Positions 22,509 through 42,523 of a stretch of DNA of 64,000 nt are shown piece after piece. A program made the position numbers and the translations under genes. Within the stretch, counting starts at the first letter, position 1; each line of letters begins with the position of its first letter. The notes beneath the pieces were generated by a model that saw only the letters and a program-made list of their open reading frames with translations, was not told the origin of the DNA and ran no database searches. Source of the DNA: Chthonomonas sp. (GTDB taxonomy: Bacteria > Armatimonadota > Fimbriimonadia > Fimbriimonadales > Fimbriimonadaceae); NCBI GenBank assembly GCA_016788115.1, contig JAEURR010000007.1:1-64000 (forward strand), in the 5' to 3' direction.

Positions 22509-22886
22509 ATGTCTAAAGCTGAAGTCTGGCTAGCATTCCTCACCGAACGGCAGTTCTCACCCGAGAGCCTGCCGGGTGGCGAGATTCGGTTCACCGTCGA
22601 TGAGAATGTCTTCGTCTTACACCCGGAGCCAGACGATGCGAGCTACTTCAAGCTGAGCTTTTACCACGTGTGGGACAAGGACCAGCCTGCGGCGTCGCAC
22701 GAGCTCCTAGAGGAGCTCAACATGAAGGTCAAATGCGTGAAGCTATGGGTGCAAGCGGACGTGCTGTGCGTCACGTGCGAAGCATTTTATGCAGATGCGA
22801 CGCAAGCGACGGCGATGTTCGACCGGTACATGACCCAGATCTACGGGGCAGTACAGGTCATCCAAGCTGGCCACTTTCCCGACTAG
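22509..22886 (+). CDS. Small cytosolic protein, YbjN-like
   Basis: A 125-aa protein without signal or membrane segment. The alternating strand/helix order (EIRFTVDENVFVLHPE, then SYFKLSFYHVW, VKLWVQADVLCVTCEAFY, and a C-terminal helix) resembles the YbjN / type III chaperone-like fold, but no diagnostic motif makes this certain. It is divergent from tRNA-Cys and its stop overlaps the convergent peptidase stop by 4 nt. Function unknown. Confidence 0.7.
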   Translation: MSKAEVWLAFLTERQFSPESLPGGEIRFTVDENVFVLHPEPDDASYFKLSFYHVWDKDQPAASHELLEELNMKVKCVKLWVQADVLCVTCEAFYADATQATAMFDRYMTQIYGAVQVIQAGHFPD

Positions 22887-24394
22887 TGCTCGTGATCGTG
22901 CTCGTCCTCAGGCGCGATGCCGCCGGAGCGTGGAGCCGGCTCAGCCGGTAGGGGCCACTTCTCTGGCCTCCACAGCTTCTCGGGGGCACAAGCCACGTTG
23001 TAAGCCAGCAGAGCCGTATTCACCGACATCTGCCTCAATCCGGGAAGGAATGCGTTCGTATAGCGGTCGTTAGCCGTGTGCCAGATGAACCGGTACGTCT
23101 GTGGACCAGTCTTGCCCCACGCGAACGCGGGGATCCCCTGGGCCAAGTAGGAAGCGTGGTCACTTCCCCCGCCTCGCATCCACTGACCGCCCGCGTCGCT
23201 CACCACAATGGGCTGCTCCGGAAACGCCTTGGCGTAGTCCGACAGGGCGCGCTCGATGATGGGCCTCCAAGCAGGCATCACGCTGAGCGAGGACTGGTAG
23301 TTCGAACCCGAATCCTCGTTGAAGACGGCCACAAGCTTCTGCCGATCCCACTTCTTTGCATCGGCGGCGCTGCCATACAGGCCCTGCTCTTCCCCGCTCC
23401 AGAGGATGATCCGCATCGACCGGACGGGCTTCGCTTTGGCCATCGCGATCAGGCGCGCAGCCTCCAGGCTCACGCTCGAGCCGGTTCCATTGTCGCTGGT
23501 CCCCTGCGATCCCGGGCCGTCCCAGCTGTCGAAGTGCCCCCCAAACATCACCCATTCGTCCGCCTTCGAACTGCCGGGCCAATCGGCCACCAGATTGTAC
23601 TGGGGCACGGGCTTGGTCCCAATGTACTGATCGAGGTTGAACTCGAGCTCCACCGGACGGCCGGCCTCGGTCATGCGTCGGATCCACCGGAAGTCTCCGA
23701 ATCGGATGTTGACGCGCGTGTCCTTCGGGGCGTTGCCAGCGACCAATGGTGCCCACGAACCACTCGTGTGCACCCAGTTCTGTTTGTCCGCCCCGCCGAA
23801 GACCTTGCCAGCAATGCCGAGCTTGTCCAGTGCCGCTTCGACGTCCTCAAGCGCAGCGAGCGCAGGGTTCTTGGTGCGAAGCTCTGGCGTCAGCGGTACC
23901 AGCGGCCGGGAGCCGCGCATCGTCGCCGCCGTCTCCATGAGAATCCACTTCCCCTTCAGCTGGTCCTTGCGGAGCTCAAACTCGGCCATGGACTTCGGTT
24001 GGATGGCCGTCAGGGCTTTGCGCGGGCCGTCAGTGCCGGGCATCCAGGCGGCGCTGCTGAACATGAGGTCCCACCGCACCGGTTGGTTCATTCGGCCAAA
24101 CGAAGACGGTCCGCGGTCGAAGCCAAAAGGGACCTCCCCCCACTTCTCCAGGCGCACGTTTTGCCAACCCCAGCTGCGCAGCTTCTGCATCGCCCATTGC
24201 TGACCGCGGGCCAGGTTTTTCGAGCCAGTGAGGCGCGGGCCAATGTCGTAGGAGAGCTCCTTCAGAAGGACGGCCGCTTGGTTACGATCCATCCCCTCGC
24301 TGAGAATGACCTTGATGGTCCCCGGATCTCCCTGAGCCCACACTTGGGCCGCGCACAGGAGTGCACAAGACGAAAGCCAGCGTCGAAGCCTCAT
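22883..24394 (-). CDS. Secreted zinc peptidase, M28 family (carboxypeptidase Q-like)
   Basis: A 503-aa exported amino- or carboxypeptidase. A signal peptide (MRLRRWLSSCALLCAAQVWA) is followed by an N-terminal segment and a PA-type insertion (about 110-260). The M28 domain follows: GGHFDSWDGPGSQGTSDNGTG with the histidine and bridging aspartate, SGEEQGLYGS with the catalytic Glu pair, NEDSG, and the last zinc histidine in WHTANDRYT. The C-terminus ends in the acidic, histidine-rich EDEHDHEH, which could hold metal. It lies 15 nt downstream of the first dockerin-tailed gene on the same strand, so it may share that transcript. Confidence 0.92.
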   Translation of the reverse strand: MRLRRWLSSCALLCAAQVWAQGDPGTIKVILSEGMDRNQAAVLLKELSYDIGPRLTGSKNLARGQQWAMQKLRSWGWQNVRLEKWGEVPFGFDRGPSSFGRMNQPVRWDLMFSSAAWMPGTDGPRKALTAIQPKSMAEFELRKDQLKGKWILMETAATMRGSRPLVPLTPELRTKNPALAALEDVEAALDKLGIAGKVFGGADKQNWVHTSGSWAPLVAGNAPKDTRVNIRFGDFRWIRRMTEAGRPVELEFNLDQYIGTKPVPQYNLVADWPGSSKADEWVMFGGHFDSWDGPGSQGTSDNGTGSSVSLEAARLIAMAKAKPVRSMRIILWSGEEQGLYGSAADAKKWDRQKLVAVFNEDSGSNYQSSLSVMPAWRPIIERALSDYAKAFPEQPIVVSDAGGQWMRGGGSDHASYLAQGIPAFAWGKTGPQTYRFIWHTANDRYTNAFLPGLRQMSVNTALLAYNVACAPEKLWRPEKWPLPAEPAPRSGGIAPEDEHDHEH

Positions 24395-24408: not shown

Positions 24409-25803
24409 TCAAAGTACGGGGTCGCCCGACTTCTCGTACGAATCCGAAAGCAACAGGTAGTCGAAGAAGTCGACTTCGCCGTCCCGGTTCAGGTCAGCTC
24501 CCGCGATGTAGCCTGGGCCACCCGAGCTGGTTTCGTACGCCCCGCTCAAGATCAGGTAGTCGAAGAAGTCGACGTTGTCGTCCCCATTGCAGTCGCCGTT
24601 TGTAAGATCGATCGTGCCTAGGTTGACCGAACCAGCAGACGTTGAGTAGGCAACGTTCTTCCGGAGCCAGGTGTCCACCTTCACCGAGAACGTGCTTGGA
24701 CCACCGGGAGCGCCGGGGGTAATGTCCTTCACGACAAAGCTGCCGTCCGCCTGGACGGTTGCCACGGCATCATGCACGGTGAAGAACCGCTTGAGGGTCA
24801 CCGTCACCGTCTTGGGGGCCGTGCCGGGAGCGATCGGGCCGAAGTTCAGCTTGCCTGAAACGGTCCGTCCTGAGGTATCGACAAAGAGCCCGATCGCCGG
24901 ATGATAGATGCCGTCTGCCGAAGACGACCGGTCCAGATCGACTCGCTCCGAATAGGTGAAGGGGCCACCCGCAGTGTTGGTCAGGTCCTGGAAGATGTAA
25001 TCTGGCGCGTTCACGCTCAGCCCCGAGCTGGCCTTGCTCGAATCGATCCACGCCCACTTGCTGCTCTTCGAGGGATTCGTGCCCGGATACACCGGATCAC
25101 CCGGCGATCTCATGGGAACGAGTGCAAGCTGGAAACTCTCGGTCGTCAGCGGAACAACCGTGCTAGAACTGACCGTCGTTGCGACGGACAGTTCCACTGC
25201 GCCACCGACTCCAGGAAGCGCCCAGCCTTGACTGACTTGCGAAAGGTCAATGACGCCCGAAATGAACCCCGCGGTGAGGTTACGGTAGACCAATGCGATC
25301 GACGTCAGGGGTTGCGAAGCAAACGGACCGGCTGAGCTGGTCCCAGCACCCAGATAGGTTGTGACGGTGACCACCAGGTCCTTCATCCCGGACGCCGTCG
25401 GAGTTCCGGCAGGATTCCATAACCCAAAGAAGGAGGCGGCAGAGGCGACCTTGAACTGCGTACCCGATGCCAGGGTCATATCGTCGGCATAGCGGTACGC
25501 ACGGTAGGTGTCGGCCTCCAGGTCGGCAGGGACCGACCCGCCATAAACCGATGAAAAGAGAGCCGATGGGTTGGGCAAACTGCCAAGATTCGCGTGCGTC
25601 GCATCGTACGCGGCAGCAAAGGTGACGGCGTCACGTTGGCCCTGCGCAGCGGCGGGCATGGGATTCCAGCCACCGACCGGGTTCCCGTTCAAATCCAGCA
25701 CCGCGTAGGCATCTGGCGTAATTGACCGGAAGCTCTTGTCGCTCGCGGCAGCATAGGCGCTACAAAGCACCGCCAGCAATGCGATCCCGTATTTCACTCT
25801 CAT
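24409..25803 (-). CDS. Secreted protein with C-terminal dockerin-like tail (paralogue 1)
   Basis: A 464-aa exported protein of unknown function. The ATG at 25803 follows AGAGGGGAG and opens a signal peptide (MRVKYGIALLAVLCSAYAAA). The body is beta-rich with no enzyme motif I recognise. The last 61 residues (404-464) contain two dockerin-type calcium loops of the form D-x-N-x-D-x6-D: DCNGDDNVDFFDYL and DLNRDGEVDFFDYL, each followed by LSxxYE. Three more genes downstream in coordinate order have the same plan. Dockerins normally bind cohesins, but no cohesin is in the window, so the tail may anchor or sort the protein. Confidence 0.85.
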   Translation of the reverse strand: MRVKYGIALLAVLCSAYAAASDKSFRSITPDAYAVLDLNGNPVGGWNPMPAAAQGQRDAVTFAAAYDATHANLGSLPNPSALFSSVYGGSVPADLEADTYRAYRYADDMTLASGTQFKVASAASFFGLWNPAGTPTASGMKDLVVTVTTYLGAGTSSAGPFASQPLTSIALVYRNLTAGFISGVIDLSQVSQGWALPGVGGAVELSVATTVSSSTVVPLTTESFQLALVPMRSPGDPVYPGTNPSKSSKWAWIDSSKASSGLSVNAPDYIFQDLTNTAGGPFTYSERVDLDRSSSADGIYHPAIGLFVDTSGRTVSGKLNFGPIAPGTAPKTVTVTLKRFFTVHDAVATVQADGSFVVKDITPGAPGGPSTFSVKVDTWLRKNVAYSTSAGSVNLGTIDLTNGDCNGDDNVDFFDYLILSGAYETSSGGPGYIAGADLNRDGEVDFFDYLLLSDSYEKSGDPVL

Positions 25804-25867
25804 TTTGACTTCGACTCCCCTCTGCCGTCTGGCAAGGCATGACAAATCGCCCCGCACAGCGTTACTT

Positions 25868-25896
25868 ACTCTATCACGAAAAAGCCCTGGGAACAA
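25868..25896 (-). promoter_or_regulatory. Possible promoter of dockerin-tailed gene 1
   Basis: TTGTTC (25891-25896), 17-nt spacer, TAGAGT (25868-25873) on the minus strand, about 65 nt upstream of the start codon. The -35 box lies in the T-rich end of the preceding terminator. The segment GTGATAGAG resembles GTGATAGGA in the promoter of paralogue 3. Confidence 0.45.
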
Positions 25897-25929
25897 GAAA
25901 GAAACCCCGCGGCGGCCAACGCCGCGGGG
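25893..25929 (-). terminator. Terminator after dockerin-tailed gene 2
   Basis: A 10-bp G+C stem (arms 25920-25929 and 25905-25914) is followed on the minus strand by TTTCTTTCTTG. It stands 25 nt after the stop of the 25954-27468 gene. Confidence 0.88.
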
Positions 25930-25953
25930 CATTCCAGTACGAACCAAGTATCT

Positions 25954-26064
25954 TTACGGAAGCTCGGGATCGTCTTCCAACTCGTAGCTGTCGTTCAGCA
26001 ACAGGAAGTCGAAGAAGTCGATCGTCCCGTCGCGGGTGAAGTCAGCCGTGAAGTTGTCAATGTA
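25954..26064. repeat. 111-bp direct repeat, copy A (3' end of paralogue 2)
   Basis: Identical base for base to 27660-27770. It encodes the second calcium loop and the C-terminal LEDDPELP. Similarity continues with few differences to about 26190, including another identical run of about 80 bp around the first calcium loop. Confidence 0.95.
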
Positions 26065-27468
26065 GGCGGCATCCGGGAACGCCGACTCGTACCCTGCCGA
26101 GACGATCAGATAGTCGAAGAAGTCGACCGTCGTGTCGTCGTTGGCTTCGCCGTTCGGAAGGACCAGGTTCGCATTCGTCACGCTGCCGGCGGTAGTATTC
26201 ACCGTCAGGTTGCGTCGAAGGAAGCCTGGAACTTTGACCGAGAGGTTGCGAACGCCGCCTGCTCCAGTCTGTGTCTTGTCAACGAGGTAGTACTTGTAGG
26301 TATCGCCCGAGACGTGGACAAGAGGCACGGCGCGATCATCCGCCTTCGCGTCGAACTGGATGACTGCAGCGGGCTCAGGGATGAGCGCTACCGAAGGATC
26401 AACCATGCCGGTCAGCTTCACCGTGCCCGAGATCACACGTGCATTGGTGTCTGCCCAAAAGCTCATCGCATGGTGAAGTTGGGTCCCAGCACGGACTCCC
26501 GGATTCGAGAGAATGAGGCTCGCATCGTTCGGAACGAGTTCAGACCAAGAGTTATCGCCCAAGGCGTCCGTCGTAAAGAAGTCGTCGTGCTGGTAGTCCG
26601 AGTCGTTCACGAAGTTGGCACCGACTCCGTCCCAAGTCGCATCCACAACGTCTTCCCACGCGTCATTGTCGCTGCCCGCGGGGTTGGTACCAACCGGCAG
26701 ATCACCGGTGGTGCTCCAGTTCAGCTGGTAGCCGACCGCGATGCCTGCGGTGGATGACACTTCACGGAAGTTCGTGCGGCTCGCGCCCGATCCATCGTAA
26801 GTGAGGAAGGTGAGCGACATACCGCCGCCCGTGTCCGGCATGTTGAACTGCAAGCTCGACGTCGTGAGGTTGCTGCTCAGAGCGTATCCTCCAGCTGCAA
26901 GACCGTCGTAGAAGAGCGCGACGCTTTCATTCGTTGAGAGCGAGTTCGGGCCTACTCCCGTGATGTCCACGACATTCTCCGAAGAGATGACGATGGCCAG
27001 ATTGTTCGAGTCGCCTGAGCCTGGAGCCCAGCGGGCTGCGAGCCAAAGAGCGCGAACCGGTTGACCGGCCGCCGCGGCTGGCAATCGCATGTCGTCCATC
27101 GAGAAGGCGTTCTGATAGCCCGTGAACAACGTCAGAGGCACGTTCGTCGGCCAGCCCGATGGAGCGACGCCACCCGGGGCGTACTTGTACGTCGGGAACG
27201 GATTTGTCGTCAACGTGTTGGCGTTGACTCCTGCGCCGTTGTACAGGTCCACGAAGACTGGCGCATCACGCCAGAATCCCTGATTGGCCAGTTCCTGGGC
27301 TGCGCCAGAAATCCGACCATGCTTGTACGCGGCGACAGCAGAGGCTTGGCGCGGAGTGAGCTTGGACGAGTCCACTTCCGTCCGCACAGGGCGGGCGAAT
27401 GCAGAAACGCCGAAGAGAGCGAGTGCAGTGAGGGCGAACCCTCGAGTAAGCGTATTTGTGTTGTTCAA
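25954..27468 (-). CDS. Secreted protein with dockerin-like tail (paralogue 2)
   Basis: A 504-aa exported protein. The likely start is TTG at 27468, seven bases after a perfect GGAGGA; the product then opens with a signal peptide (LNNTNTLTRGFALTALALF, ending around SAFA). The body shares its plan with paralogue 3: YKYAPGGVAPSGWP and GYQNAFSMDDMR near the N-terminus, and SDYQHDDFFTTDALG in the middle. The dockerin-like tail has ANDDTTVDFFDYL and DFTRDGTIDFFDFL; in the first loop the leading aspartate is replaced by glutamate. The last 111 nt are identical to those of paralogue 3. Function unknown; conserved secreted family by inference. Confidence 0.85.
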   Translation of the reverse strand: MNNTNTLTRGFALTALALFGVSAFARPVRTEVDSSKLTPRQASAVAAYKHGRISGAAQELANQGFWRDAPVFVDLYNGAGVNANTLTTNPFPTYKYAPGGVAPSGWPTNVPLTLFTGYQNAFSMDDMRLPAAAAGQPVRALWLAARWAPGSGDSNNLAIVISSENVVDITGVGPNSLSTNESVALFYDGLAAGGYALSSNLTTSSLQFNMPDTGGGMSLTFLTYDGSGASRTNFREVSSTAGIAVGYQLNWSTTGDLPVGTNPAGSDNDAWEDVVDATWDGVGANFVNDSDYQHDDFFTTDALGDNSWSELVPNDASLILSNPGVRAGTQLHHAMSFWADTNARVISGTVKLTGMVDPSVALIPEPAAVIQFDAKADDRAVPLVHVSGDTYKYYLVDKTQTGAGGVRNLSVKVPGFLRRNLTVNTTAGSVTNANLVLPNGEANDDTTVDFFDYLIVSAGYESAFPDAAYIDNFTADFTRDGTIDFFDFLLLNDSYELEDDPELP

Positions 27469-27611
27469 AACAAAGTCCTCCAAATTTCTTTGCGGGACCC
27501 GTTCTGTAATCGACGTTCTGAAGCAATAGAAGAAAAAGCAGTCTGTGACTGTGGTCTATCTTACAACGGAAAATCCGAAATGGAGCAAGAAATCTCCAGA
27601 ACAAAAGGAAG

Positions 27612-27638
27612 AACCCGCGCCACAGAGTGGCGCGGGTT
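27612..27638 (-). terminator. Terminator after dockerin-tailed gene 3
   Basis: A 12-bp stem (arms 27627-27638 and 27612-27623, three-base loop) is followed on the minus strand by CTTCCTTTTG. It lies 22 nt after the stop of the 27660-29192 gene. Confidence 0.85.
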
Positions 27639-27659
27639 CCTTGGATAACCCAGGTTTCC

Positions 27660-27770
27660 TTACGGAAGCTCGGGATCGTCTTCCAACTCGTAGCTGTCGT
27701 TCAGCAACAGGAAGTCGAAGAAGTCGATCGTCCCGTCGCGGGTGAAGTCAGCCGTGAAGTTGTCAATGTA
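27660..27770. repeat. 111-bp direct repeat, copy B (3' end of paralogue 3)
   Basis: Partner of 25954-26064, offset 1706 bp, with identical sequence across 111 bp. The identity starts exactly at the stop codon, so selection on the tail plus recent duplication or gene conversion is likely. Confidence 0.95.
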
Positions 27771-29192
27771 CGCGGTGTCCGGAAACGCGGACTCGTACCC
27801 TGCCGAGACGATCAGATAGTCGAAGAAGTCGACCGTCGTGTCGTCGTTGGCTTCGCCGTTCGGAAGGACCACGTTTGCATTCGTCACGCTACCACCGGTG
27901 GTGTTCACCGAGATGTTGCGTCGAAGGAAGCCAGGAACCTTGAACGAGAGGTCGCGAACGCCACCTGCGCCAGTCGGGGTCAGGTCGACCAACTCGTACG
28001 AGTAGACGTCGCCGCTCACGTGCACCAACGGCACTGTTCGGTCGTCAGCCTTAGCATTCACCTGGACTCCGGTCGAGAACTCAGGAATGAGCGCCAAAGC
28101 CGGATCGACCATACCAGTCAGCTTGACAGTTCCCTTGATCGTGCGCAGGTTGCTGTCACCGAAAACGGTCCAGCAGTGCACAAGGTCGGTACCGGCGTAC
28201 GGAGCCGAAGTCAGAGGCGAGACATAGATCTCAGCCCATGCATTCGCGCCCAGTGACTGCGTGGTGAACAGATCATCGTGCTGATAGTCCGATCGGTTGA
28301 CGTAGTTGGCAACCACGCCGTCCCAGGTCGATTCGGTGTCATCTTCCCACGCTGGCTTGGCCGAGCTGGCGGTATTGGTACCGACCGGGTTCGTGCCGCC
28401 AGTGGCGCTGAAGTTGAACGTCCAGGCTGGGTATGCAATACCTGTGGCACTAATCTCTCGAACGTTCGTCGGTGCTGAAGACGGGCCATCAAAGGTGAAA
28501 GCCGTCATTGCCAGACCGCCACCGTTCGCAGGCATGTTGAGCTGCAGACCGCTGGCCGACAGATCGCTTCGGAGTCCGTAGAATCCACCAAAGGTCGTGA
28601 TGCTGTAGAACAGCGCGACGCCATCGTTCTCCGAAACGAATGATGGACCGTTGCCGGTCAGGTCAACGTCATTCGTCGAGGAGATGAGCAGAATCAGGTT
28701 CCAGCGGGTCGTGTCGGTTGCGTCACCGTCACCTAGGCCAGGGGTGTACCGGTAAGCAGTCCAGAAGCCGCGGATCGGCTTGCCTGCCATGCCAGTCATC
28801 GCATTGACGTCGTCCATGGCGAAGCAGTTCTGGTAGGCCGACGTGCCATAGGTGAACAGCGGAGGCGAGGCCGGGTAACCGGCAGGTGCGACGCCGCCCG
28901 GAGCGAACTTGTACGACCGCGAAATGCTAGCTGGGAACACTGCTGGGTTCAACTGAGCGTTGTTGTAGATCTCAGTGAAGACAGGTGCGTCCTTTGCCAA
29001 CGGGTTGCTGGTGAGTGGAATGATCGGGCCCACAATCTTACCGTTGACGACTCGCGCCGCGGCTTCAGCCGAGTAGTTGATCATCTTGCTCGTATCGGCG
29101 ACGACCAGCGGGGTCGTCGGACGAGCGAACGAAGACGCCGCAACCGCCAGGGCTGCGATCGTCAGAGTTGCATGCTTGTACGAAAGAATCAT
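27660..29192 (-). CDS. Secreted protein with dockerin-like tail (paralogue 3)
   Basis: A 510-aa exported protein. The ATG at 29192 lies after TTGGAGGACTT, the same ribosome-binding sequence as in paralogue 2. Signal peptide: MILSYKHATLTIAALAVAAS, ending around SFA. The body is clearly homologous to paralogue 2 (YKFAPGGVAPAGYP, AYQNCFAMDDVN, SDYQHDDLFTTQSLG, KLTGMVDPALALIPE), with no catalytic motif that I can identify. The C-terminal tail has the two VDFFDYL/IDFFDFL calcium loops and ends in DDPELP. It has its own promoter (29294-29322) and terminator, so the paralogues are separate transcripts. Confidence 0.86.
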   Translation of the reverse strand: MILSYKHATLTIAALAVAASSFARPTTPLVVADTSKMINYSAEAAARVVNGKIVGPIIPLTSNPLAKDAPVFTEIYNNAQLNPAVFPASISRSYKFAPGGVAPAGYPASPPLFTYGTSAYQNCFAMDDVNAMTGMAGKPIRGFWTAYRYTPGLGDGDATDTTRWNLILLISSTNDVDLTGNGPSFVSENDGVALFYSITTFGGFYGLRSDLSASGLQLNMPANGGGLAMTAFTFDGPSSAPTNVREISATGIAYPAWTFNFSATGGTNPVGTNTASSAKPAWEDDTESTWDGVVANYVNRSDYQHDDLFTTQSLGANAWAEIYVSPLTSAPYAGTDLVHCWTVFGDSNLRTIKGTVKLTGMVDPALALIPEFSTGVQVNAKADDRTVPLVHVSGDVYSYELVDLTPTGAGGVRDLSFKVPGFLRRNISVNTTGGSVTNANVVLPNGEANDDTTVDFFDYLIVSAGYESAFPDTAYIDNFTADFTRDGTIDFFDFLLLNDSYELEDDPELP

Positions 29193-29293
29193 TGAATCTA
29201 AGTCCTCCAAGAGACGTTACAGGTTCAAGGCCACCCGCAGCCTCCGCGACCCCCAGTTCGTCATTGACCAGGCAGCGCGTTTAAGCTTGGGTT

Positions 29294-29322
29294 ATCCTAT
29301 CACAGCCGGAACCTAATGCCAA
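29294..29322 (-). promoter_or_regulatory. Promoter of dockerin-tailed gene 3
   Basis: TTGGCA (29317-29322), 17-nt spacer, TAGGAT (29294-29299) on the minus strand, about 100 nt upstream of the start codon. Both boxes fit sigma-70 well. Confidence 0.65.
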
Positions 29323-29370
29323 GAGGTTTTCGTACAATTTTCTCGGACTAGATTCTTGAACCCAGCATCA

Positions 29371-30831
29371 TTACGGGGTGTCGCCCTCAAGCTCATAGTT
29401 TGAACTGAGGATGAGGTAATCGAAGAAGTCGACGATCAAGTCGCCATTCAAGTCCCCGTCCGCGGTGCGAACCCCGCTTTCTGCCGGATAGTCCCAGCCA
29501 GGAACGCTCGAATCGAGTTCGTAGACGCCGCTCATGACCAGATAATCAAACAGATCGACCATGTTGTCGTGGTTGCAATCGCCATTGGTGAGCACCGCAT
29601 TGCGGCCCGAAACGTTCAAACCGCCAGTGGTATTGGCTGTGAACGATTTTTGCAGCCAGTGTGAAGCCTTTACGTAGACCACGTAGTTGCCCCCGGTGCC
29701 CTGCTGGGGGTCCATGATCGTGTAAGCACCGGCCGAACTCACACCGACCGTCTGAGTGCTGATGACCTGCCCCGTTGCAACTGATTTGACTTGGAAGATC
29801 GCAGAACTTGGCTTCGCGGCAGAGGCTACAAGCCCGGAGAACGAGAGCTGGCCCGAGATGGTCGTCACGTTCGTATCGACAAAGATCGCGGCTGCACACT
29901 GCAATATGCCGCGCGTGGCATCCGTGTAGTCGTACTGCTCGGCAAATGGAAACGCTTCCGAGGCCGTATTCGTGAAGTCTTGGAGCACATAATCCGGACT
30001 GCCGAAGCCGAAGGCCACGTCGCCGTCGTCGTCCCACTGCCAGCTACTCGAGCTCGAAGTGTTCGTACCCGGGAAGAGCGGCTCGCCGGGCGAGAGCATA
30101 TTGCTCAGCAGTGGCTGGATCGATGAAGGGAAGACGAGCTTCGTGTACTGCCCCACCCCGTCTGGCTTCCCCACTTCGATGCGCAGAGCACCGTTCTGTC
30201 GTGGAATGGGGACCGAGGTTGCCGTGCTCGCCAGGTCGATGGTTAAGATGTGGTTACCCGCAGCGAGGCCATTGAATCGCGCGGCAATGCCGGTCAGCTC
30301 ATGGTCGGCGGCGGGGCCATTACCCGTGTCATCGAACTTGGCAGCGGTGGAGATCTTAAAAATGTAGTCGGCCGTACCGGCGCCAGTCGTCCCACCATTT
30401 GGATTCACATAGACCCCAAGCTTTAGGTAGCGCCCAAATCGTCCCAGGGTCGAAGGCACAAAGTTCGCGTCGTTGACCCACAGGTACTCACGATACGAGT
30501 CGTTGTTGATCCGCTTCGGTCCCGGATGTGCGCCGTAGACGCCCTGGGTGAATGCAGCAAGCGTGGTCGGGCTGGTGCTCATGGAGTCCCAGGCCATGAC
30601 GAGGTTCGGGGCGTTCTTCACGTTCGGAGTAGACTCGATTTGACTCCACTGGCCGATTCGGCCACTCGCGTAGAGGGGTGCAACCGCGCTTGCGACCGAG
30701 GATTTGAGCGACTTCACGGGCACATCGGCCAACGGGAATCGCATCCCTTGTGCGAACGCAGAGCTTGCACTTGCGATCAACCCGCACGCGATAAGGCTCG
30801 CGCCAACGTAAGAAATTCTTCCCTTCATCAT
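29371..30831 (-). CDS. Secreted protein with dockerin-like tail (paralogue 4)
   Basis: A 486-aa exported protein starting at the ATG at 30831 (the next codon is also ATG). Signal peptide: MMKGRISYVGASLIACGLIA, ending around AFA. The body differs from paralogues 2 and 3 and is closer in plan to paralogue 1 (PGEPLFPGTNTSSSSSWQWDD against PGDPVYPGTNPSKSSKWAWID; DYVLQDFTNTA against DYIFQDLTNTA). The tail has DCNHDNMVDLFDYL and DLNGDLIVDFFDYL with a longer linker between them. Thus the cluster contains two subtypes (1 with 4, 2 with 3) sharing one kind of tail. Function unknown. Confidence 0.84.
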   Translation of the reverse strand: MMKGRISYVGASLIACGLIASASSAFAQGMRFPLADVPVKSLKSSVASAVAPLYASGRIGQWSQIESTPNVKNAPNLVMAWDSMSTSPTTLAAFTQGVYGAHPGPKRINNDSYREYLWVNDANFVPSTLGRFGRYLKLGVYVNPNGGTTGAGTADYIFKISTAAKFDDTGNGPAADHELTGIAARFNGLAAGNHILTIDLASTATSVPIPRQNGALRIEVGKPDGVGQYTKLVFPSSIQPLLSNMLSPGEPLFPGTNTSSSSSWQWDDDGDVAFGFGSPDYVLQDFTNTASEAFPFAEQYDYTDATRGILQCAAAIFVDTNVTTISGQLSFSGLVASAAKPSSAIFQVKSVATGQVISTQTVGVSSAGAYTIMDPQQGTGGNYVVYVKASHWLQKSFTANTTGGLNVSGRNAVLTNGDCNHDNMVDLFDYLVMSGVYELDSSVPGWDYPAESGVRTADGDLNGDLIVDFFDYLILSSNYELEGDTP

Positions 30832-30947
30832 AATACAAACTCGAGTCACTCCAGTTTACTAGACCGGTGTGCAGGGGACTATGCGCGAATTACCGGGTTC
30901 GCCCTACGTAAGCAGACTACGGTCCCGACCAAAAGGTTCACTAACGT

Positions 30948-31862
30948 TCACTCGTACGTGATCAAGCCGTGCGAACTTACGAGCTCTTCTAGCCACTCGT
31001 AGCACTCCGAATCGTCACGCGGAGGCACCACATCCGGGATCAAGTACCACGATTCCCAGTGGACGGTTGACTCGCCCGGTGCGAGAGTCACCAGTCCACC
31101 CAGCGACTCAATTTCGAGCATGTCCGTCCGAGTGAACGTCTCGAAGTTACTCCCGAAATCGGGGTAGTTCGCGTCGTCGTGGTAGGCAAATCGCTTTAGG
31201 AAGAGGTTCTCATTGTTGGCATAGGCTGCGTATCCTTGGCTTACACATGCGCCAACCTTCTGATTGTCGCCCTCGATGTTGTGGCGTAGCCGGACCACCC
31301 GGTCACCCCACGTCCAGCGCGGATCCTGCATTTTGGTGTAATGCCACATCACCAGCGGCCTGGCTGGAAGAAGCGCTTCGGTATGCGGACGGGGCGGAGC
31401 CTGCGGGAAGATGCACTCTCCCCCCGGGGCCATGACGGTCACACCCCAAGGAGCGAGCTTGACGCTCTCGCACGTTGAATTGAGCAGCGCGTGGCGGATG
31501 GTGAACCCGTCGAGCGAGTCGATCGGCCGAATGGAAAGGGTCTTCTGGATTCCCACCGGCCCGACCGGTGCGCGGAACGAAGTCCAACCGTCTTCTTCGA
31601 GGATCTCAACCGGCTCATTGTCCGGCTCATAGGTCACGGACGCCCGCTCGGGCGCGACCCACAGCCGGTGCCCCCCGTAGCTGCGATACTGATCACCGCC
31701 CGTCATTCCGCGATGCCGCTCGTACTCCACAAACTCATTAGGGCCTCCGACCCGGCCAAACCGGATAACGCGTGGACCCACTTCGAGCGTGACGACCGCA
31801 TCGACGTCGCCCGAAACGAGCCGAGCACATCGGGACCACCCACCGTAGGGGATGATTTCCAT
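30948..31862 (-). CDS. Galactose mutarotase-like protein (DUF4380-like)
   Basis: A 304-aa soluble protein with the long beta-sandwich character of aldose epimerase-like folds: VTLEVGPRVIRFGRVGGPNEF near the N-terminus, YGGHRLWVAPE, and the C-terminal LAPGESTVHWESWYLIPDV. This combination matches DUF4380-type proteins, which are believed to bind carbohydrates; a catalytic histidine pair as in true GalM is not evident. No signal peptide. The 116 nt between it and the dockerin-tailed gene 4 carry a direct repeat GTTCACT (about 30928-30946) but no clear terminator. Confidence 0.78.
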   Translation of the reverse strand: MEIIPYGGWSRCARLVSGDVDAVVTLEVGPRVIRFGRVGGPNEFVEYERHRGMTGGDQYRSYGGHRLWVAPERASVTYEPDNEPVEILEEDGWTSFRAPVGPVGIQKTLSIRPIDSLDGFTIRHALLNSTCESVKLAPWGVTVMAPGGECIFPQAPPRPHTEALLPARPLVMWHYTKMQDPRWTWGDRVVRLRHNIEGDNQKVGACVSQGYAAYANNENLFLKRFAYHDDANYPDFGSNFETFTRTDMLEIESLGGLVTLAPGESTVHWESWYLIPDVVPPRDDSECYEWLEELVSSHGLITYE

Positions 31863-41554: not shown

Positions 41555-42523
41555 TTAGCGTGCCTTTCGGCGTCGCGCGATCAGCACAAGCCCCGCGCCC
41601 ATGGCTAGCCAGGTGCCTGGCTCGGGGGCCAGAATCGTCGAGACGCCCGCCACCTTTCCGCCAGACCAACCGAATCCACCGACAAGTTCGACCGTGTTGG
41701 TCTGCGGCTCGATGAAATACACCGCCCGAGCGGAAGAGCTGATGCTCTGGAAGTCTTGAACGTTCACCCACCGCCCGGAGTGAGTCCGCGCGGAATTGCT
41801 ACTGATGAACGCTTCATCGGAACCGAGCGCGCTGCTAGTGATGTTGGAGCTTGTCAGTGCTACGGTTGAACTAACTCGCTTGAAAGATCCCGCCGCGTAG
41901 GCGGACTGGGTCTTGCCCCATACGATCAGGTCACTTCCGTCGAGCCCCACTCCAACGTACTCGTTTGCGGCTGAGACGCCAACCTGGAACTGGCTCGAGA
42001 TATTCAAAAGCCCGGAAGCAGTATGGAGGTTCCGATAGTAGGTACGCCCCGCTATGTACGAGAAGGAGGCGAATGACAAATCCGGAAGTTGAACTGCTCC
42101 AACAGGGGTATCGCCGGCAACCAGGACTACATTAGTAACCAGCGTTCCTGTCGTGGGGTTGAACACACCGATTGTCGTGGCGTCGGTCACAAGGATATTC
42201 CCGTTGGCCATCGGACTTAGCTGTTTGATCCCGCTCTTCCCAGACGCAAAGGAGCCCAGATACTCGCCGGTGAAGTGGTTAAAGCGGTGAATACGGCCAA
42301 ACGAGTCGCTGGCGTAGGTCCGGTTGGCACTCGCGATGGAAGTCATCGAGGTGACGTTCTTGCACTGGAAGTTTGAAAACGTACCCAGCGAGATTCGGTT
42401 CTCCAGGTCGTACCGGTAGAAAGTCCCCGACGTACTCGCCGTGATGAGCATCTCGTACGAGGCATGCGCTCCAGCCGCACCGAACGCAACACAACCAACA
42501 ATCAACCAATGCCGTCCAAACAT
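41555..42523 (-). CDS. PEP-CTERM sorting domain protein
   Basis: A 322-aa exported protein. Signal peptide MFGRHWLIVGCVAFGAAGA, cleaved around HAS. The body contains repeated short beta blades (GRIHRFNHFTGEYLGSFASG, MANGNILVTDATTIGVFNP) suggesting a beta-propeller. The C-terminus is a textbook PEP-CTERM: APEPGTWLAMGAGLVLIARRRKAR has the PEP motif, a membrane helix and the basic end, recognised by exosortase (EpsH). No exosortase gene is in the window. Its stop lies 1 nt from the convergent lepB stop. Confidence 0.9.
   Translation of the reverse strand: MFGRHWLIVGCVAFGAAGAHASYEMLITASTSGTFYRYDLENRISLGTFSNFQCKNVTSMTSIASANRTYASDSFGRIHRFNHFTGEYLGSFASGKSGIKQLSPMANGNILVTDATTIGVFNPTTGTLVTNVVLVAGDTPVGAVQLPDLSFASFSYIAGRTYYRNLHTASGLLNISSQFQVGVSAANEYVGVGLDGSDLIVWGKTQSAYAAGSFKRVSSTVALTSSNITSSALGSDEAFISSNSARTHSGRWVNVQDFQSISSSARAVYFIEPQTNTVELVGGFGWSGGKVAGVSTILAPEPGTWLAMGAGLVLIARRRKAR

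Follow-up and report, generated by a model that had tools for sequence, protein, structure and literature searches.

The window analysed here, the first 64,000 nucleotides of contig 7 in a 2.4-Mb Chthonomonas sp. genome, carries four tandem open reading frames of 512, 509, 516 and 492 residues, all on the minus strand (24409-30849) and referred to here as P1 to P4 (Table 1). Each of the four proteins begins with a signal sequence and closes with a double dockerin loop. The reading frame of P1 is open to 25947, and an in-frame ATG at 25803 lies ahead of the signal peptide. When each protein was scanned singly, Pfam Dockerin_1 was found on all four, with 33.3 bits for P1 and 19.7, 20.4 and 16.1 bits for the other three, one score being above the cut-off; the four adjacent exported proteins with a duplicated dockerin-like tail in the preliminary description of this DNA were thereby recovered. 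The cluster is flanked on one side by a secreted peptidase-like gene, presumably M28-like, and on the other by a gene for a 304-residue protein. Elsewhere in the window, an unrelated PEP-CTERM-like protein of 322 residues ending in APEPGTWLAMGAGLVLIARRRKAR is encoded at 41555-42523 on the minus strand.

Table 1. Features of the four-gene cluster and its flanks (positions in the window)
Feature	Position	Strand	Evidence
P1, exported protein with signal peptide, beta-rich body, predicted X-module and double dockerin	24409..25803	-	AlphaFold2 model, Pfam
P1 tail, end of the predicted X-module and two dockerin loops, NGDCNGDDNVDFFDYL / ADLNRDGEVDFFDYL	24421..24681	-	A2 profile E 1.1e-35; Dockerin_1 33.3 bits
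P1 X-module, predicted Ig-like beta-sandwich before the dockerin	24594..24876 (limits approximate, from the model)	-	AlphaFold2 and Foldseek
P2, paralogue of P1 with the tail in common	25954..27483	-	ORF list, BLASTP
P2 tail	25969..26232	-	A2 profile E 7.8e-31
P3, paralogue of P2, body 48% identical (amino acids)	27660..29210	-	ORF list, BLASTP
P3 tail	27675..27938	-	A2 profile E 4.8e-31
P4, paralogue of P1, body 28% identical (amino acids)	29371..30849	-	ORF list, BLASTP
P4 tail, codes LF / FF, with 7 extra residues in the linker	29380..29670	-	A2 profile E 1.4e-31; alignment
Flanking gene, secreted peptidase-like, syntenic marker in G001	22883..24394	-	52% identity to L298:14868-16445 (beside the G001 cluster)
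Flanking gene on the other side, 304 residues, syntenic marker	30948..31862	-	59% identity to L298:8814-9731

The bodies of the four proteins had been described as different, in two subtypes, but BLASTP connected five of the six pairs (5e-123 to 3e-8; P1/P3 was weak, 0.61), and by this measure they are a single paralogous family and not unrelated. The tail DNA of P2 and P3 is almost identical over about 230 bp (25954-26232 and 27660-27938) and the adjoining body DNA is clearly less alike, with 76% over the whole aligned DNA stretch of the two genes. This difference between tail and body suggests recent local gene conversion confined to the docking module.

A comparison of the tail with type I dockerins, as first made, did not hold. 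In a profile search of the PDB with the tail, type II dockerins and X-dockerins ranked first (2y3n_B, 2.3e-9; 5k39_B, 3.7e-9; 4wi0_B, 3.4e-8; 2b59_B, 2.3e-7), so that type II X-dockerins are the solved structures closest to it and a type I identity was ruled out. Structure prediction, which had been proposed for bodies and tails, was run on P1, and the AlphaFold2 model had a mean pLDDT of 80 and of 89-95 in the tail region. Foldseek matched this model to the X-module plus type II dockerin (XDoc) of the scaffoldins CipA (2b59_B; E 8.7e-9, TMt 0.76, rmsd 2.8) and ScaA (4wi0_B; TMt 0.75), and the match spans about 155 residues, which places an X-module directly upstream of the dockerin. The XDoc X-module is known to resemble the Ig-like domain of carboxypeptidase D (PMC5141474), and weak matches to CarboxypepD_reg were found in sibling tail proteins of the same genome. 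Two calcium-loop F-hand repeats are present, as judged from Dockerin_1 and the ligand positions. The aromatic FFDYL motif does not follow the calcium loop, as had been supposed, since its F-F-D occupies positions 10, 11 and 12 inside the loop. On sequence profile and predicted fold, the tail is an XDoc. In Clostridium thermocellum the XDoc pairs with type II cohesins and the complex is attached to the cell surface (PMC5141474).

The genome-wide search proposed for the tail found it on 35 proteins and not on four. Pfam Dockerin_1 occurs at 36 places in the genome and a tail profile built from 33 tails gave 35 matches (down to E 5e-38), numbers well above what chance would give and ruling out that the tail is confined to the four-gene cluster. 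A plausible export signal was found in 35 of 35 tail proteins by a simple hydrophobicity rule. All except one of them end no more than 6 residues after the tail (34 of 35, one of the 34 judged by separate reading and not by the script), and the remaining one has an internal dockerin. A scan of the bodies of 29 tail proteins encoded outside the window identified three subtilases, a trypsin, an M12B reprolysin, one GHL10 and BNR and Vps10 propellers, and many bodies had no assignment; among these 29 proteins the dockerins were not mainly on plant-cell-wall glycoside hydrolases, as they would be in a cellulosome-type set. Given that the tail closes almost every protein on which it occurs, that all of these proteins have signal peptides and that their bodies are functionally unrelated, it might be a C-terminal secretion or processing signal that is read by an export machine and not by a structural receptor. 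However, the proteins end without a cleavage motif or membrane segment, the tail is predicted to be a fully folded XDoc, and the symmetric code described below, which switches between congeners, would not be expected for a general export machine. We therefore consider such a signal very unlikely. Of the two roles suggested in the preliminary description, surface retention is the best reading of the tail, whereas a secretion signal is disfavoured by a predicted folded XDoc with a genome-specific code.

Dockerin loop positions 10-11 are established cohesin-recognition and specificity residues (PMC8063739), and in the tails of this genome they are FF or LF. We compared, in one alignment, 115 tails of five genomes from a single family, namely G000, which is the genome of the window, and G001, G002, G007 and G016, the tails from each of these other genomes being the best-scoring ones there. 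The mutual information between genome and residue peaked at loop positions 14, 11, 7, 21, 9, 10, 3 and 17 in both repeats and exceeded every label shuffle, and the calcium ligands at positions 1, 5 and 12 were nearly constant across the aligned tails. The positional information of repeat 1 correlated with that of repeat 2 (rank correlation 0.91). At nine code positions (3, 7, 9, 10, 11, 14, 17, 20 and 21), picked after seeing the mutual information, a choice that does not force the repeats to agree, the Jensen-Shannon distance between repeat 1 and repeat 2 was 0.08 when both came from the same genome and 0.54 when they came from different ones. No such contrast was seen at positions outside the code (0.30 within versus 0.34 between genomes). 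Across the five genomes, the code positions are thus nearly fixed within a genome, identical in both repeats and different between genomes. The code reads FF-DYL with E21 in G000, T-IF-DYL/I with D21 in G001 and G002, IG-DY/F-A with G21 in G016 and IA-DYS/T with A17 in G007. Since the codes of the congeners G001 and G002 are close (0.12-0.13 across genomes), the clear switch within the genus is that between G000 and the G001/G002 pair. A code that is symmetric, nearly fixed within a genome and different between genomes implies that the tails share a co-evolving partner. Other families of the order (L148-L157) mostly have a DDADLLxVLFxFG dockerin with DA at positions 10-11.

The G001 counterpart of the cluster has three genes and is bordered by homologues of the two genes that flank the cluster in the window (identities in Table 1). 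Proteins homologous to the window bodies occur in G001, G002, G007, G016, G023 and G004, each with the code of its own genome, and the more distant ones in G014, G018 and G028 are without the tail. Judged from synteny and homology, the code has changed at an orthologous locus between G000 and G001, and a code that differs at such a locus is evidence against mere descent or conversion and points to selection by a partner that the tails have in common. The uniformity within a genome could otherwise be neutral: if a surge of tail duplication or gene conversion had taken place separately in each genome, the tails would resemble each other by common descent and a partner would be unnecessary. Gene conversion does occur, as the near-identical tail DNA of P2 and P3 attests, and the tail numbers vary strongly between genomes (35, 79, 80, 96, 40 and 0). 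But the identity of tails of this genome to that of P1 is only 40-57% in the alignment, the non-code positions lack genome-specific agreement between repeats, and orthologous syntenic bodies bear different codes, which leaves neutral uniformity as a most improbable explanation.

The genome-wide cohesin search that had been proposed gave no standard cohesin matching the tails, and the earlier observation that no cohesin or scaffoldin is nearby was confirmed. The Pfam cohesin profile PF00963 gave no match in this genome even at E<=10, and no match over its cut-off in any of 41 genomes of the order (40 of them relatives), ruling out a standard cohesin as the tail partner. By the same profile, the genome contained neither a cohesin-bearing scaffoldin, as in a cellulosome, nor cohesin-bearing anchor or adaptor proteins, as in a planctosome.

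The partner had previously been left open, and we now propose a specific candidate receptor sorted by exosortase. The search for it relied on genomes with few tails and on what accompanies the tail gene there. In G010 and G021, the neighbour of the tail gene encodes a small PEP-CTERM protein, and these two proteins are homologous (E 5e-19). A profile built from the body of these proteins, with the signal and the sorting motif removed, matched 16 of 85 genomes of the family; all 16 are among the 39 with tails, and the 46 without tails gave no match (Fisher 4.8e-7). Within one genus the receptor was found in 6 of 10 tail-bearing versus 0 of 11 tail-less genomes (p 0.004). Both p-values overstate independence because the genomes are related. 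A larger receptor profile added G090 and G051, and at E<=0.1 it gave no match in 20 tail-less genomes used as controls. Weak A8 profile matches in G099 and G082 looked spurious, as they lack a PEP-CTERM end and one resembles a translation factor, and they were not counted. Receptor and tail genes are directly adjacent and co-directional in nine genomes from two genera (G010, G091, G092, G021, G051, G053, G050, G055 and G057), each of which carries only 1-3 tails, and in G062, with five tails, they are about 2 kb apart. The genome of the window has one receptor copy (G000:C6:217306-218115, minus strand), which adjoins no tail gene, and no match to the receptor profile was found in the body-cluster neighbourhoods. 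The C-terminus of this copy has a PEP motif, a hydrophobic stretch and a basic end (TIGR02595, 26.6 bits against a cut-off of 16), and the same genome encodes one exosortase (PF09721, E 5.9e-46). Both congeners have tandem triplets of the receptor beside a coaD-like gene (L336:6701-9725 and L337:6808-9800), compared with the one copy in G000; the triplet copies might have different specificities. In G004, the counted receptor match sits in a protein that itself ends in the tail (L355, G004:C36:68200-69165), and this chain with a receptor-like domain and a dockerin tail is possibly an adaptor.

The receptor domain was modelled as a beta-sandwich (pLDDT 88.8). Among the top 50 Foldseek matches of this model, about 12 were cohesin chains, the best of them with TMt 0.54, and several were CBM3 modules, at E 0.05-0.3; a GH123 enzyme stood at rank 1 and no match was below 1e-3. 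By sequence, the receptor had no match in the PDB and its profile-profile comparison with verified cohesins was not significant, so it was rejected as a cohesin homologue at this level; nor did the PEP-CTERM proteins of G010 and G021, when scanned, match PF00963. The small PEP-CTERM protein with a predicted beta-sandwich is our best candidate for the socket into which the tail would bind. The tail could instead be a real docking module whose genome-specific partner is another, undetected receptor, with the PEP-CTERM protein as a co-transcribed passenger or as cargo of the same surface structure. A convincing receptor homologue is absent in 21 tail-bearing genomes, some of them tail-rich (G087-G089, genus g22), the receptor gene is not beside most tail genes, and the protein shows no sequence homology to cohesin, all of which would fit this alternative. 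Against it, the PEP-CTERM protein is exclusive to tail-bearing genomes and is adjacent to the tail gene in the nine low-copy genomes, and its predicted fold has a weak likeness to cohesin and CBM3. On balance we find another receptor possible but unlikely.

Taken together, we propose that the tail is probably a surface-docking address, an XDoc by which diverse secreted proteins are attached non-covalently to a common PEP-CTERM receptor; the binding, its calcium dependence and the surface location are what we infer, and tail identity, genome-wide spread, the symmetric genome-specific code, its switch at an orthologous locus, the joint occurrence and the adjacency of receptor and tail, and the presence of an exosortase were computed directly. 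The cargo would comprise subtilases, trypsin, a reprolysin-type metalloprotease, beta-propellers and the body family of the cluster. The signal peptide would take these proteins out of the cell, and two calcium-loaded loops would fold against the X-module. The receptor, a small beta-sandwich PEP-CTERM protein sorted to the envelope by the exosortase of the genome, would then read positions 10-11 of the loop together with the nearby 9, 14, 17, 20 and 21, identical in both repeats. Because every tail in a cell would be read by one and the same receptor, the code would stay fixed in each genome, and between species it would have moved together in dozens of genes. It is fairly likely that a surface display system of two parts, not described before, operates here in a lineage that has no recognised cohesins. 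In it, an exosortase-sorted receptor, either cohesin-like or unrelated but functionally equivalent, would be combined with XDoc tails on many secreted proteins, and the code would switch genome-wide between sister species. No paper treating PEP-CTERM and dockerin together was found in the open-access literature searched, which is not the whole literature. Many dockerins in cohesin-less genomes had no assigned partner, and the PEP-CTERM protein is a concrete and testable candidate that would join two surface systems, PEP-CTERM sorting and dockerin docking. Docking pairs that are naturally orthogonal, with a specificity changed between close relatives, could be of use in studies of interface co-evolution and in protein display.

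Like the PEP-CTERM/exosortase surface proteins (PMC1569441), the candidate receptor has a signal peptide, a VPEP motif, a hydrophobic stretch and a basic end in a genome with an exosortase, but beyond the sorting tail it reached the cut-off of no described PEP-CTERM family. In the dockerin-rich Planctomycetota MAG REEB511 (JAGWZK01, L065-L138), about 100 tails carry FF at positions 10-11 in both repeats, and the loci examined there gave no receptor-profile or cohesin match. The REEB511 tails differ in a DYLDFVAAF helix (DFFDYLDFVAAFSxGC) and are bracketed by cysteines, and the FF code there and in this genome is probably convergent. The clostridial scaffoldin XDoc modules (CipA, ScaA and CipB; 2b59, 4wi0 and 5k39) have the same C-terminal X-module and type II dockerin with two F-hand loops (predicted fold TMt 0.69-0.76) and serve cell-surface attachment (PMC5141474), the role also proposed here. 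Here, however, the module is borne directly by about 35 separate secreted proteins and not by a scaffoldin, there is no Pfam cohesin, and both repeats have an identical symmetric code. The type II cohesin anchors (SdbA and similar SLH-anchored proteins) resemble the PEP-CTERM protein in its proposed role as a dockerin surface socket and perhaps in fold, its predicted beta-sandwich having a weak likeness to the nine-stranded jelly roll of cohesins, whereas the PEP-CTERM protein is a single domain of about 180-240 residues that would be sorted by exosortase and not by SLH, with no detectable sequence homology to them. The closest prior idea is the planctosome, a hypothetical peptidase complex of freshwater Planctomycetes (PMC6461901), which is likewise a non-cellulosomal dockerin system with M12B reprolysin and P-domain peptidases among its parts; it has recognisable cohesins and an adaptor, of which none were found here, where the PEP-CTERM protein is the candidate anchor.
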